Shown here: piece by piece, positions 25,967 through 33,573 of the stretch
Numbering within the stretch: the stretch's first letter is position 1
Layout of the letters: every line of letters starts with the position of its first letter
Assembly: GCA_944388955.1 (NCBI GenBank)
Contig: CALXKJ010000008.1
Location: 62,001-126,000 of the forward strand
Reading direction: 5' to 3'
Origin: an uncultured Spirochaetaceae bacterium
GTDB lineage: Bacteria > Spirochaetota > Spirochaetia > Sphaerochaetales > Sphaerochaetaceae
DNA length: 64,000 nt
Made by a program: the position numbers and the translations under genes
Notes under the pieces: model-generated
Database searches by the model: none
Seen by the model: the letters and a program-made list of their open reading frames with translations, nothing else
Told to the model about the DNA's origin: nothing

Positions 25967-27550
25967 ATGGATATAGAGAGATTGATAGCTGAAGGTGAAT
26001 GCTCCCTTGGCATTGAGCTTGGCTCTACACGTATCAAAGGCATATTGATAACCCCTGATACAAAACCTGTTGCATCAGGTTCGTTTGACTGGGAGAACAG
26101 GAATGAAGGCGGTGTATGGATATATACGCTTGATGATATCCTTACCGGTATTCATGACTGCTATCAGAGTCTGAAAGCGGATGTGAAGGAGAAATATGGA
26201 ATAAAGCTTACAAAGCTTAAGAACATGGGTGTAAGTGCGATGATGCACGGTTACATGGCTTTTGATAAAAGCGGCAATCTTCTTACTCCTTTCCGCACAT
26301 GGCGCAATACAATGACTGCGGCAGAGTCGGAGGAGCTTTCAGAGCTCTTCAGCTACCCGATACCACAGCGGTGGACAATAAGTCATCTGCTGAAGGATAT
26401 AAAAGAAGAGAAGGAATATCTTGGGAATCTGGATCATGTAATGACGCTCGCCGCTTATGTTCATTATCTTCTTACTGGAGAGAAGAAGATAGGAATCGGA
26501 GATGCGTCCGGTATGTTCCCGATAGATTTCTCCACATCTGATTACAGCGAGAAGGCAATAAGCCTGTTTGAAGAGAAATACCTCAAAGGGCATTACACAT
26601 GGGGTATAAGGGATATATTCCCTGAAGTTCTCATCGCAGGTGACAATGCCGGGTATCTTACATCGGAGGGCGCAAGACTTCTCGATGATGAGCTTGAGAC
26701 CGGAGCTGCATTCTGCCCGCCTGAAGGCGATGCGGAGACAGGAATGACAGCCACGGATTCAGTAAGAGAAAGAACTGGAAATGTTTCTGCCGGAACATCT
26801 GCATTTGTCATGGCAATTCTTGAGAAGCCCCTATCGAAGGTCTATCCGGTACTGGATATAGTAGCGACACCCGATGGGAAACCCGCGGCAATGGCTCATA
26901 GCAATAACTGCACCGGCAGTTATGATGGCTGGATGAGGATATTCCGTGAGGTTGTTGAACGTCTTGGTCTCGATGTTCCTAAAGGAAAGCTGTATGACAC
27001 AGTTCTCCTTTCATCTCTCGAAGCTGATAAAGATGCCGGAGGAATGCTTAGCTATGGATATATCTCTGGTGAACACATTACAGGATTTGAGGAGGGAAGG
27101 CCGCTTACTGCAAGAACGCCGGAGAGCCGCTTCTCGCTTCCAAATCTCATGCTTTCAGAGCTTTACTCAGCGCTCTCTGCAATGCGTATCGGCCTTGATA
27201 TCCTCTTTGACGAGGAAAGTGTTCAGCTTGATTTCATAACAGGCCATGGTGGATTCTTCAAGACAAAAGAATCAGGGGCACATGCGATGGCAGCAGCCCT
27301 CCGTACGCCATGCAGGGTAATGGAGACTGCCGGCGAAGGAGGCGCATGGGGAATTGCAATCCTTGCATCATACCTTGATCATGCAAATTTTTCTCTCCCT
27401 GATTATCTCGATGAATATGCATTCTCTGATTCCTCTTCATACATGTATACGGCGACAGACGAGGAAAGAAAAGGGTATGATAAGTATCTTGAGAGATATA
27501 AGAAAGGATTAGCGATTGAGCGCGCTGCCATAGATAATCTGGAGGAATGA
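25967..27550 (+). CDS. FGGY-family sugar kinase, probable L-ribulokinase
   Basis: FGGY kinases phosphorylate pentuloses and related sugars. The 527 residues show the N-terminal [15 protein letters not shown] phosphate-binding motif, the [11 protein letters not shown] segment, and the C-terminal GHGGFFKT and [11 protein letters not shown] blocks of the ATP-binding half. The gene directly downstream is an L-ribulose-5-phosphate 4-epimerase, so L-ribulose is the most likely substrate. The isomerase araA is not in the window. The overall type looks like the short ribulokinase form rather than the Escherichia coli AraB form. The stop and the araD ribosome-binding site overlap. Xylulokinase is an alternative. 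Confidence 0.82.
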
Positions 27551-27551
27551 A

Positions 27552-28247
27552 ATGCTTGAAGAACTGAAAGAAAGGGTACTGAAGGCCAATCTTCTTCTTC
27601 CTGAGCTTGGTCTTGTCAAATTCACATGGGGTAATGTCTCTGAAATCGATAGGGAGAAGGGGATAATAGCGATAAAGCCTAGCGGTGTGGATTATGAGAA
27701 TCTCACAGCTGAGGATATAGTGCTTGTGGATACTGATGGGAATATCGTGGAAGGAAAGCTCAGACCGTCTTCCGACACCCCAACTCATATTGAGCTTTAT
27801 AAAGCATTCTCAGATATTGGCGGAGTTGTCCATACGCATTCGGAGTGGGCAGTCAGCTGGGCTCAGAGCAGAAGGGGAATTCCATGTTATGGCACAACTC
27901 ATGCAGACTGCTTTTACGGGGAGATTCCATGCACAAGAGAGCTGACTGATGAGGAAATCGAGAGCGCATACGAGATGAATACAGGACTTGTGATCGCTGA
28001 GACATTCAGGAAGAAGAATATCGATCCTCTTGCTGTTCCTGGTGTGCTTTGCGTGAATCATGGTCCTTTCTCCTGGGGCATGAATGGTCATGAAGCCGTA
28101 CATAATGCAGCTGTACTGGAGACCGTTGCAGAGATGGCTACAAAGACCGAGCTGCTCAATCCTTCTGTAAAGCCGGTTAAGCAGACAATCCTTGATAAGC
28201 ATTACTTCCGTAAGCATGGAAAAAATGCTTATTATGGACAGAATTAA
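27552..28247 (+). CDS. araD: L-ribulose-5-phosphate 4-epimerase
   Basis: AraD converts L-ribulose 5-phosphate to D-xylulose 5-phosphate, feeding arabinose into the pentose phosphate pathway. The 231-residue length matches the family. Zinc ligands are visible as VVHTHSEWA (two histidines, near residues 95-97) and a third histidine in [10 protein letters not shown]. The substrate-phosphate segments TWGNVSEID and [11 protein letters not shown] are intact, as is the C-terminal [10 protein letters not shown] tail. GGAGG precedes the ATG, and the gene lies 1 nt after the kinase. A clear terminator follows at 28261-28300. Confidence 0.95.
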
Positions 28248-31262: not shown

Positions 31263-31276
31263 GATAAGCTCCTTTG

Positions 31277-31310
31277 AAAACAAAAACCGGGCAGGCTGAT
31301 TACTGCTCGG
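31277..31310 (-). terminator. terminator-like hairpin in the greA leader
   Basis: On the minus strand CCGAGCAG (31310-31303) pairs with CTGCCCGG (31294-31287) with one mismatch and is followed by TTTTTGTTTT. It sits between the greA promoter and its AAGGAG site, so transcription may be attenuated before greA. Escherichia coli greA also has a leader terminator that yields GraL RNAs; the resemblance is in position only. Confidence 0.65.
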
Positions 31311-31322
31311 ATGCTCATAATC

Positions 31323-31351
31323 ATAATAGCACAGCTTCTTTCATTTGGCAA
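31323..31351 (-). promoter_or_regulatory. sigma70 promoter of greA
   Basis: On the minus strand TTGCCA (31351-31346) and TATTAT (31328-31323) are separated by exactly 17 nt. The predicted start near 31316 gives a leader of about 54 nt. The -35 box overlaps that of the divergent rpe promoter. Confidence 0.65.
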
Positions 31352-31374
31352 ACTTAACCGGAAAAGGATATAAT
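31345..31374 (+). promoter_or_regulatory. sigma70 promoter of rpe-dtd-recA, predicted leaderless
   Basis: TTGGCA at 31345-31350 and a perfect TATAAT at 31369-31374 are 18 nt apart. The -10 box ends 6 nt before the rpe ATG, so the predicted start site is the A of the start codon. Confidence 0.6.
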
Positions 31375-31380
31375 CGAGGC

Positions 31381-32046
31381 ATGAGCTCAAGAAGTCTGAT
31401 GATATCTCCTTCTATTCTTGGCGGGAATTTCTCAAATACAGCTGATTGCATCAAAGCCATTGTGGCTTCTGGTGCTGATTATGCTCACTTCGATGTAATG
31501 GATGGACATTTCGTTCCGGAAATAACATTCGGTGTGAAGATGATTGAGAATCTTAGGCCTTTGACTGATTTGATATTCGATGTTCATCTCATGATTGAGA
31601 AACCCGAAGAAACAGTGAAAAGATATATAGATGCTGGGGCTGGTATGGTTTCTGTCCATGCTGAGGCCACATGCCATCTCTGGCGTACCCTGACGCTTAT
31701 CAAGGATAATGGGGCAGAAGCCGGCGTTGCCATAAATCCTGCGACTCCTGTTTCCTTCATCGAGCCAGTGCTTGCTATCGCTGATTATGTGCTTGTCATG
31801 ACTGTTAATCCTGGATGGGGAGGACAGTCTTTCATTCCACAGACTGTTGATAAGATCCGGGAGCTTGACCAGAGGCGAAAAGAAGATGGCTATAGCTACC
31901 TGATTGAGGCTGATGGAGGCATCGGGCGAGGAAATATAAAGATGCTTTATGAGGCGGGCCTTGATATCGCTGTAGCTGGATCTGCTTTCTTCCGTGAAGA
32001 TGATAAAGCCGGATTCATCAAAGATATGCTCGGAGATCTGAGATGA
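31381..32046 (+). CDS. rpe: ribulose-phosphate 3-epimerase
   Basis: Rpe interconverts ribulose 5-phosphate and xylulose 5-phosphate in the pentose phosphate pathway. The 221 residues form a TIM barrel with ISPSILGGNF, the metal-site HFDVMDGHFVPEITFG, FDVHLMIEKPE, VLVMTVNPGWGGQSFI and EADGGIGRGNI. I chose ATG 31381; GAGG lies only 1 nt before it, too close to act as a ribosome-binding site. A possible alternative is ATG 31399. The stop overlaps dtd by 4 nt. It also connects to araD, whose product is xylulose 5-phosphate. Confidence 0.94.
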   Translation: MSSRSLMISPSILGGNFSNTADCIKAIVASGADYAHFDVMDGHFVPEITFGVKMIENLRPLTDLIFDVHLMIEKPEETVKRYIDAGAGMVSVHAEATCHLWRTLTLIKDNGAEAGVAINPATPVSFIEPVLAIADYVLVMTVNPGWGGQSFIPQTVDKIRELDQRRKEDGYSYLIEADGGIGRGNIKMLYEAGLDIAVAGSAFFREDDKAGFIKDMLGDLR

Positions 32047-32534
32047 AAGCTGTGATACAGCGTGCAAAGCATGCCTCATGCACTGTCGATGGCACGGTAA
32101 CAGGAAGTATCGATGATGGTCTTGTTGTCTACTTCGGCGTTGATTCAGGGGATGATGAGTCGATTCTACCCGGGTTTATCAGCAAAATGCTGAAACTGAG
32201 GATATTCGAGGATGAAAAGGGGAAGATGAATCTTTCCATCAAGGATATAAATGGATCGATACTTTTCATCAGTCAGTTCACTCTCTCTGCCGATGTTTAC
32301 CATGGGAATAGACCATCATTCGATTCGGCGGAAAAGCCTGAGAAGGCTGAAAGAATGTATATGAAAGCGGCGGAGCTTATCCGCAATGAAGGGATAAATA
32401 CAGAACTTGGTGTCTTTGGAGCACATATGGAGATTGAATACATGAATCCTGGACCTGCAACATTCATCCTTGATTCATCATGCTTCTCAGATGCCCAGAC
32501 GAGGAGGAAAAATGGCAAAGATAGCCGAGAATGA
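32043..32534 (+). CDS. dtd: D-aminoacyl-tRNA deacylase
   Basis: Dtd removes D-amino acids (and glycine) from tRNAs. The 163 residues start with the typical [17 protein letters not shown] and hold the active-site SQFTL motif. A second active-site motif reads NPGPATF instead of the common NDGPVT. The C-terminal 15 residues run past the usual end and overlap the start of recA by 23 nt, with the strong GAGGAGG site of recA inside. The NPGPATF variant may affect chirality discrimination; the effect is unknown. Confidence 0.92.
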
Positions 32535-33573
32535 TAATCTTAAAGGCAAGAAAGAAGCGCTTGAAGCTGCAAGATTGCAGATAGACAAGCAATTCGGAAA
32601 AGGCTCTCTGATGAAGCTCGGAGACAACAAGGAGACGCTGGATGTGGAAGTAATCCCATCAGGCTCTATTCTCCTTGATGAAGCATTGGGCGTTGGCGGC
32701 TATCCAAAGGGCAGAATCATAGAAATCTATGGCCCTGAGTCTTCTGGCAAGACAACACTTGCCCTGCACGCGATTGCGGAGAGCCAGAAAAGGGGAGGCA
32801 TAGCAGCGTTTATCGATGCTGAGCATGCCCTCGATCCTGGATACGCGAGGGCTCTAGGTGTCAATATCGATGAGCTCTGGATATCTCAGCCAGACAATGG
32901 CGAGCAGGCTCTGGAGATAACAGAGTCACTTGTGCGCTCCGGTGCTGTTGATATCATAGTCGTGGATTCCGTCGCAGCCCTCACTCCGCAAGCGGAAATC
33001 GAAGGTGATATGGGCGATAGCCATGTCGGTCTTCAGGCAAGGCTGATGAGCCAGGCACTCAGGAAGCTGACGGGAATCCTCAGCAAGTCTAACACCACGA
33101 TTATCTTCATCAACCAGATACGCATGAAAATCGGAGTCATGTTCGGCAATCCTGAAACGACTACAGGAGGCAACGCGCTTAAATTCTATGCATCAGTCAG
33201 AATGGATGTCAGGAGAATCGAGAGCATCGGAAAGAGCGCTGATGAAGTAACAGGTAACAGGGTGAGAGTGAAGATCGTCAAGAACAAGGTCGCGCCTCCA
33301 TTCCGGAAATGTGAGCTTGATCTCCTCTTCGGCACTGGAATCTCATACACAGGCTCATTGCTCGATGCGGCGCTGAAGTACAACCTTATCGAGAAAGCCG
33401 GAGCCTGGTATTCCTATAATGGAGAAAAGATCGGGCAGGGTAGAGATAAGACACTTGAGTACATCGCCCAGAACAATGACTTTGCCACTGAGCTTGACGC
33501 AAAGCTAAGGGAAATCATGTTCCCATCAAAGAGCGGAGACGCTATTGTTGAGAAGCAGGAGTCTCAGGTATAA
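32512..33573 (+). CDS. recA: recombinase RecA
   Basis: RecA forms filaments on single-stranded DNA and drives homologous recombination. The 353 residues contain Walker [56 protein letters not shown] and the [12 protein letters not shown] loop. I chose ATG 32512 (GGAGG 4 nt upstream); an earlier in-frame start would lie deep within dtd. It has no visible promoter or LexA-like box of its own and starts inside dtd, so it is probably expressed from the rpe promoter. Its stop codon forms part of the TATAAT box before scpA. Confidence 0.98.

Follow-up and report, generated by a model that had tools for sequence, protein, structure and literature searches.

Introduction

In phage lambda, the PR and PRM promoters lie back to back, with divergent starts about 82 bp apart and operators between them, and they have no common -35 box. 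As at the locus described here, the starts are near enough for interference between polymerases. The bidirectional promoters of E. coli share a -10 element, and their starts are mostly 18, 10 or 23 bp apart (PMC12825309). Five of them showed no competition between the two directions at basal activity, which was too low, and clear competition once one direction was strongly activated (PMC12825309). Thus, a shared element alone does not imply regulation. In the case of greA, a terminator in the E. coli leader yields the GraL RNAs, and in vivo catalytically active GreA thereby reduces its own expression (PMC6829880). Premature terminators upstream of greA or rnk were predicted in Proteobacteria, bacilli and Clostridia, with no spirochaete mentioned (PMC2965389). 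In the spirochaete Leptospira interrogans, transcription often begins at or beside the start codon (PMC5243855).

The window, i.e. the whole stretch of 64,000 nucleotides that was analysed, belongs to a 2.1-Mb genome (G000) of a genus close to Candidatus Ornithospirochaeta, and the nearest named locus (L001) has 79% identity in Rpe. Here, as in the E. coli bidirectional promoters (PMC12825309), one element would serve two opposed polymerases, and the binding of one would block the other. Unlike in E. coli, it is the -35 box that is shared, and the predicted greA and rpe start sites are 65 bp apart; with its separate -10 boxes (31323–31328 and 31369–31374) the locus is not a bidirectional promoter of the shared -10 type. 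A literature search on divergent promoters with a common -35 box found no fully matching report, which does not prove that none exists.

Materials and methods

After a search for Rpe in 100 related genomes, the intergenic region was taken wherever greA adjoins divergently, which gave 41 loci after removal of one duplicate. Statistics of the greA promoter refer to 37 loci with a clear call, with L130, L121, L124 and L128 excluded as uncertain. An apparent distance of 18 in L130 came from a wrong greA promoter call, for which TTGCTC-17-TATAGT is the better site. The maximum-likelihood tree was built from Rpe and the GreA N-terminus and contains some weak nodes. The expected number of overlapping -35 pairs was obtained by first-order Markov simulations in 2-kb blocks.

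Gene arrangement at the greA/rpe locus

The divergent order of greA and rpe was found in most of the genus, and the features of the window are given in Table 1. The GreA domains occupy residues 758–907 of 911 (Pfam GreA_GreB_N and GreA_GreB; NCBIfam PRK14720 and TIGR01462), i.e. only the final 150 residues. The first 750 residues had no Pfam match and form a large N-terminal extension. Beyond the greA end, the ORFs at 25967–28247 look by eye like those of a sugar kinase and of a sugar-phosphate aldolase/epimerase; with rpe on the other side, genes of sugar metabolism would thus flank greA on both sides. The rpe-dtd-recA operon proposed in the earlier note is supported, as the three genes overlap or abut, their order is unchanged in those relatives whose sequence could be followed to recA, and the promoter scan listed no plus-strand promoter-like site between the rpe start and recA. 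Since recA also overlaps the dtd end, its transcription may rely on the rpe promoter with the predicted leaderless start discussed below.

Table 1. Coordinates of genes and predicted control elements at the greA/rpe locus (window numbering)
Feature	Position	Strand	Basis
greA, long spirochaete form, 911 aa	28527..31262	-	ORF from ATG 31262; Pfam, NCBIfam
greA Shine-Dalgarno AAAGGAG	31269..31275	-	sequence
T-rich tract TTTTTGTTTT, directly after leader hairpin	31277..31286	-	sequence; T-rich in all aligned relatives
Hairpin of the greA leader, similar to an intrinsic terminator (CCGAGCAG-loop-CTGCCCGG; fourth pair an A.C mismatch)	31287..31310	-	
Predicted greA transcription start	31316	-	inferred from -10 position
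greA -10 TATTAT, extended (TGC TATTAT)	31323..31328	-	promoter scan, relatives
greA -35 TTGCCA, spacer 17	31346..31351	-	fixed relative to greA across relatives
rpe -35 TTGGCA, spacer 18	31345..31350	+	common box only in window species and few relatives
rpe -10 TATAAT	31369..31374	+	promoter scan; relatives' -10 usually 6–7 nt before ATG
rpe (ribulose-phosphate 3-epimerase)	31381..32046	+	TIGR01163; first base is also the predicted start
dtd (D-aminoacyl-tRNA deacylase), overlapping rpe end	32043..32534	+	TIGR00256
recA, overlapping dtd end, likely ATG 32512	32512..33573	+	TIGR02012; start codon inferred

The -35 box shared by the predicted greA and rpe promoters

The heptamer TTGGCAA at 31345–31351 reads as TTGGCA on the plus strand and TTGCCA on the minus strand, and its sequence, its coordinates and the promoter scan all agree with the earlier note. 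The consensus promoter scan of 29–34 kb also recovered the good -10 boxes described there, with TTGGCA-18-TATAAT on the plus strand (31345–31374, 11/12) and TTGCCA-17-TATTAT on the minus strand (31351–31323, 10/12). A TG precedes the -10 box of the latter, so the greA-side promoter is written TTGCCA-17-TGCTATTAT, TG-extended. Both were among the three top promoter-like matches of the scan, in a region where promoter-like sites are not enriched (7 found, 6.4 expected in shuffles). The two -35 hexamers overlap by 5 of their 6 bp, with spacers of 17 and 18, and T31345 belongs to the rpe hexamer alone. An overlapping -35 pair scoring at least 21/24 occurs just once in the 64-kb window, the expectation being 0.017 per 64 kb, and this pair sits between the two divergent gene starts of greA and rpe. 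When the family was screened for TTTGSCAAA with a TATAAT 8–40 nt behind it, three matches came from the own genome, one of them the greA/rpe locus, and so few matches do not indicate a regulon of such sites.

The use of one -35 box by the greA and rpe promoters in the window species is thereby confirmed as real at the sequence level. The locus falls into the class of divergent promoters with overlapping -35 boxes at functional spacing, to which it adds a new case. With one -35 box and starts 65 bp apart, it is physically implausible that two RNA polymerases are bound at once. The mutually exclusive initiation stated in the earlier note is therefore plausible from the geometry of the window species; it does not hold as a conserved switch, because in most of the genus the promoters are separate, with distances of 30–249 from the greA -35 box to the rpe -10 box.

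Promoter spacing in related genomes

The greA promoter has a nearly constant form. Its spacer was 17 in 31/37 and 16 in 6/37 loci, and its -10 box was TG-extended in 36/37. The heptamer keeps 17 (rarely 16) bp to this extended -10 box wherever the rpe promoter sits, in about 40 relatives. Furthermore, the near-palindromic form TTTGGCAAA is retained in 17/18 close relatives without sharing, and such equal conservation without sharing suggests that the heptamer is retained for greA.

The rpe promoter is positioned with respect to its own gene. In the window, 6 nt lie between the end of its -10 box and the rpe ATG (31381), and across the loci the gap is 6 nt in 26/41 and 7 nt in 8/41 loci (34/41 together). 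With a gap of 6–7 nt, the predicted start falls on the A of the ATG, so the rpe mRNA is predicted to be leaderless across the genus. As the next downstream ATG is not conserved, translation probably does begin at the first one. In comparison with the leaderless mRNAs of L. interrogans (PMC5243855), such a start is here deduced for rpe alone, from the position of its -10 box. Genome-wide, TGNTATAAT at 6–7 nt before an ATG is only in slight excess (6 and 5 of 71), and we therefore make no general claim of leaderless transcription.

Measured from the heptamer, the rpe -10 box lies at distances of 16 to 249. The distance is 16–18 in a few lineages and 30–249 in the rest, and no locus falls at 19–29 or below 16. 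The short distances (in rising order 16, 17, 17, 17, 18) belong to the window, L082, L101, L002 and L100, and two further cases (18, 18) to L119 and L123, where the box is degenerate. Among close relatives, 5/23 share the box, including the window. On the tree, sharing appears in the window with L082, in L101, whose sister L105 has a distance of 35, in L002 with L100, and as a weaker case in L119 with L123; this points to about three or four independent origins, a number that hinges on the tree, in which some nodes are weak. Two loci, L092 and L114, have long intergenic regions (369 and 354 bp), in which a long stretch separates the promoters and both are intact on their own sides.

Proposed origin of the shared box

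We propose a joint explanation, which we regard as fairly probable, in which the heptamer is primarily the greA -35 box and is reused by rpe after shrinkage of the gap, with a separate family-wide control by a hairpin in the greA leader. The heptamer would first of all be the -35 box of the conserved extended -10 greA promoter and, being near-palindromic, would also read as a -35-like TTGGCA on the other strand. The rpe-dtd-recA promoter would be fixed to the rpe ATG by the leaderless start. When the intergenic gap shrinks, the rpe -10 box would arrive at 16–18 bp from the heptamer and rpe could reuse the greA -35 box, the window species being one lineage where this happened. Sharing thus seems to be a sporadic consequence of gap shrinkage. 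As only one polymerase at a time would fit on the pair, initiation at greA and rpe should compete in the window species, to a degree probably set by promoter strength.

Selection could instead have created the common -35 box repeatedly, as an evolved switch that makes greA and rpe-dtd-recA mutually exclusive. The bimodal distances with an empty range of 19–29 and the three or four separate lineages are in line with this, and the recurrence is mildly unlikely if distances are spread uniformly (at least three sharing lineages, P about 0.01–0.12; at least four, about 0.001–0.03, by assumptions). However, the close relatives that share are few, and the box of L119 and L123 is poor for rpe (ATGCAA, 3/6). 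The empty range may also be explained by steric clash, as an intermediate distance would carry a cost without a shared box; the predicted starts would be about 77 bp apart when the distance is 30, near the side-by-side limit for two polymerases, whereas at 16–18 the polymerases would take turns on a single box. We therefore consider such a switch unlikely. The regulatory link between GreA and recombination that the earlier note drew is not upheld: most relatives keep the two promoters separate, and the heptamer is kept without sharing. A general link between greA and recA is unsupported, because sharing is absent from most relatives that have these genes. As to the conservation of the heptamer and both -10 boxes among relatives, all three elements exist there, but their mutual spacing is not retained.

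The sharing could also be neutral, with rpe using its -10 box alone and the correctly spaced -35 match having no effect. Most relatives do have an extended rpe -10 box and poor -35 matches (2–4/6). However, the rpe -10 box of the window and L082 lacks the TGn extension, unlike that of most non-sharing relatives, as if the -35 box now carried the load, and the spacing is 16–18 in every sharing case, which makes neutrality improbable. Instead of a -35 box, TTTGGCAAA might be an operator to which a dimeric regulator binds, as its near-palindromic form and its retention in close non-sharing relatives might suggest. This is very improbable, because in more distant relatives TTTGGCAAA is replaced by AAAAGCAAAG, AAAATCAAAC or GAATGCAAAT and the palindrome is lost, while the greA -35 box (TTGCTT, TTGATT, TTGCAT) persists at 16–17 bp.

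The hairpin in the greA leader

The second part of the proposed explanation concerns the greA leader, which on the minus strand (31310–31277) reads CCGAGCAG-TAATCAGC-CTGCCCGG followed by TTTTTGTTTT, and then AAAGGAG and ATG. The hairpin lies between the greA promoter and the ATG and begins about 6 nt past the predicted start. On the greA strand, all 41 loci have CCGAGC a short way downstream of the predicted start, then a variable stretch, GCCCGG and a T-rich tract, with GTTCGG in place of GCCCGG in L119 and L123. A strict pattern of the hairpin had a single match in the own genome, and a looser one had matches in 78/119 family genomes, compared with 4 for a reversed control pattern. Among loci fetched from other genera, L214–L224 (one genus) have the element upstream of greA. 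In G058, of the same genus, greA and rpe are not neighbours but lie a few kb apart, so the element appears to travel with greA and not with rpe. Across the class, 61 regions upstream of greA were scanned, and nothing comparable was found outside Sphaerochaetaceae.

In 31 sequences, 95.9% of cells pair, both sides change at three pairs, and the covariation score exceeded that of all 500 shuffles; the lower stem does not vary, and the compensatory changes fall in the inner stem. An A.C mismatch occupies the fourth pair in 51/53 sequences, and L119 and L123 have A-U there with an adjacent G-U. The predicted hairpin (-10.1 kcal/mol, z about -2) is of modest stability and contains the mismatch, so it might terminate only weakly or have some other function. 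A simple terminator scan did not list it, presumably because the mismatch splits the stem. A role as a DNA operator was rejected as unlikely, because the arm-to-arm distance varies among relatives. An Rfam search of the intergenic region gave only one chance-level match to an unrelated snoRNA. Folding of the full leader gave no clear alternative (antiterminator) structure, and there is little room for an upstream arm with the hairpin about 6 nt from the start.

By its sequence and covariation, the element is a GC stem with a T-tract between promoter and ATG, as in greA-leader attenuators. Most likely, as the simplest reading, it would end a share of greA transcripts early through partial premature termination, so that greA would be under attenuation throughout the family, separately from the shared box. 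As with GraL and the predicted attenuators (PMC6829880, PMC2965389), a terminator-like hairpin lies very near the greA promoter; it differs from GraL in its restriction to Sphaerochaetaceae among the spirochaetes scanned, in its near-invariant A.C mismatch, in showing no antiterminator and in having no Rfam match. Because no Rfam model matched, common descent with the known greA attenuators is not claimed. Feedback by GreA itself on the leader terminator, as in E. coli, is perhaps conceivable and speculative. Two greA layers, namely a GreA-responsive terminator with a recognised A.C mismatch and a repeatedly evolved shared -35 box that makes greA and rpe-dtd-recA alternatives where gaps are compact, seem to us a doubtful combination.

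Implications

As a candidate control element of greA, the hairpin is more widely conserved than the common -35 box, and the family-wide leader hairpin and the predicted leaderless rpe mRNA are more informative features than the sharing. The relatives form a natural series, with this pair of promoters placed at many distances and the -35 box shared exactly in several cases, and they offer ready-made variants for tests of polymerase competition. Moreover, the leader hairpin would extend greA attenuation to a spirochaete family, and it suggests that premature termination upstream of greA arose more than once.
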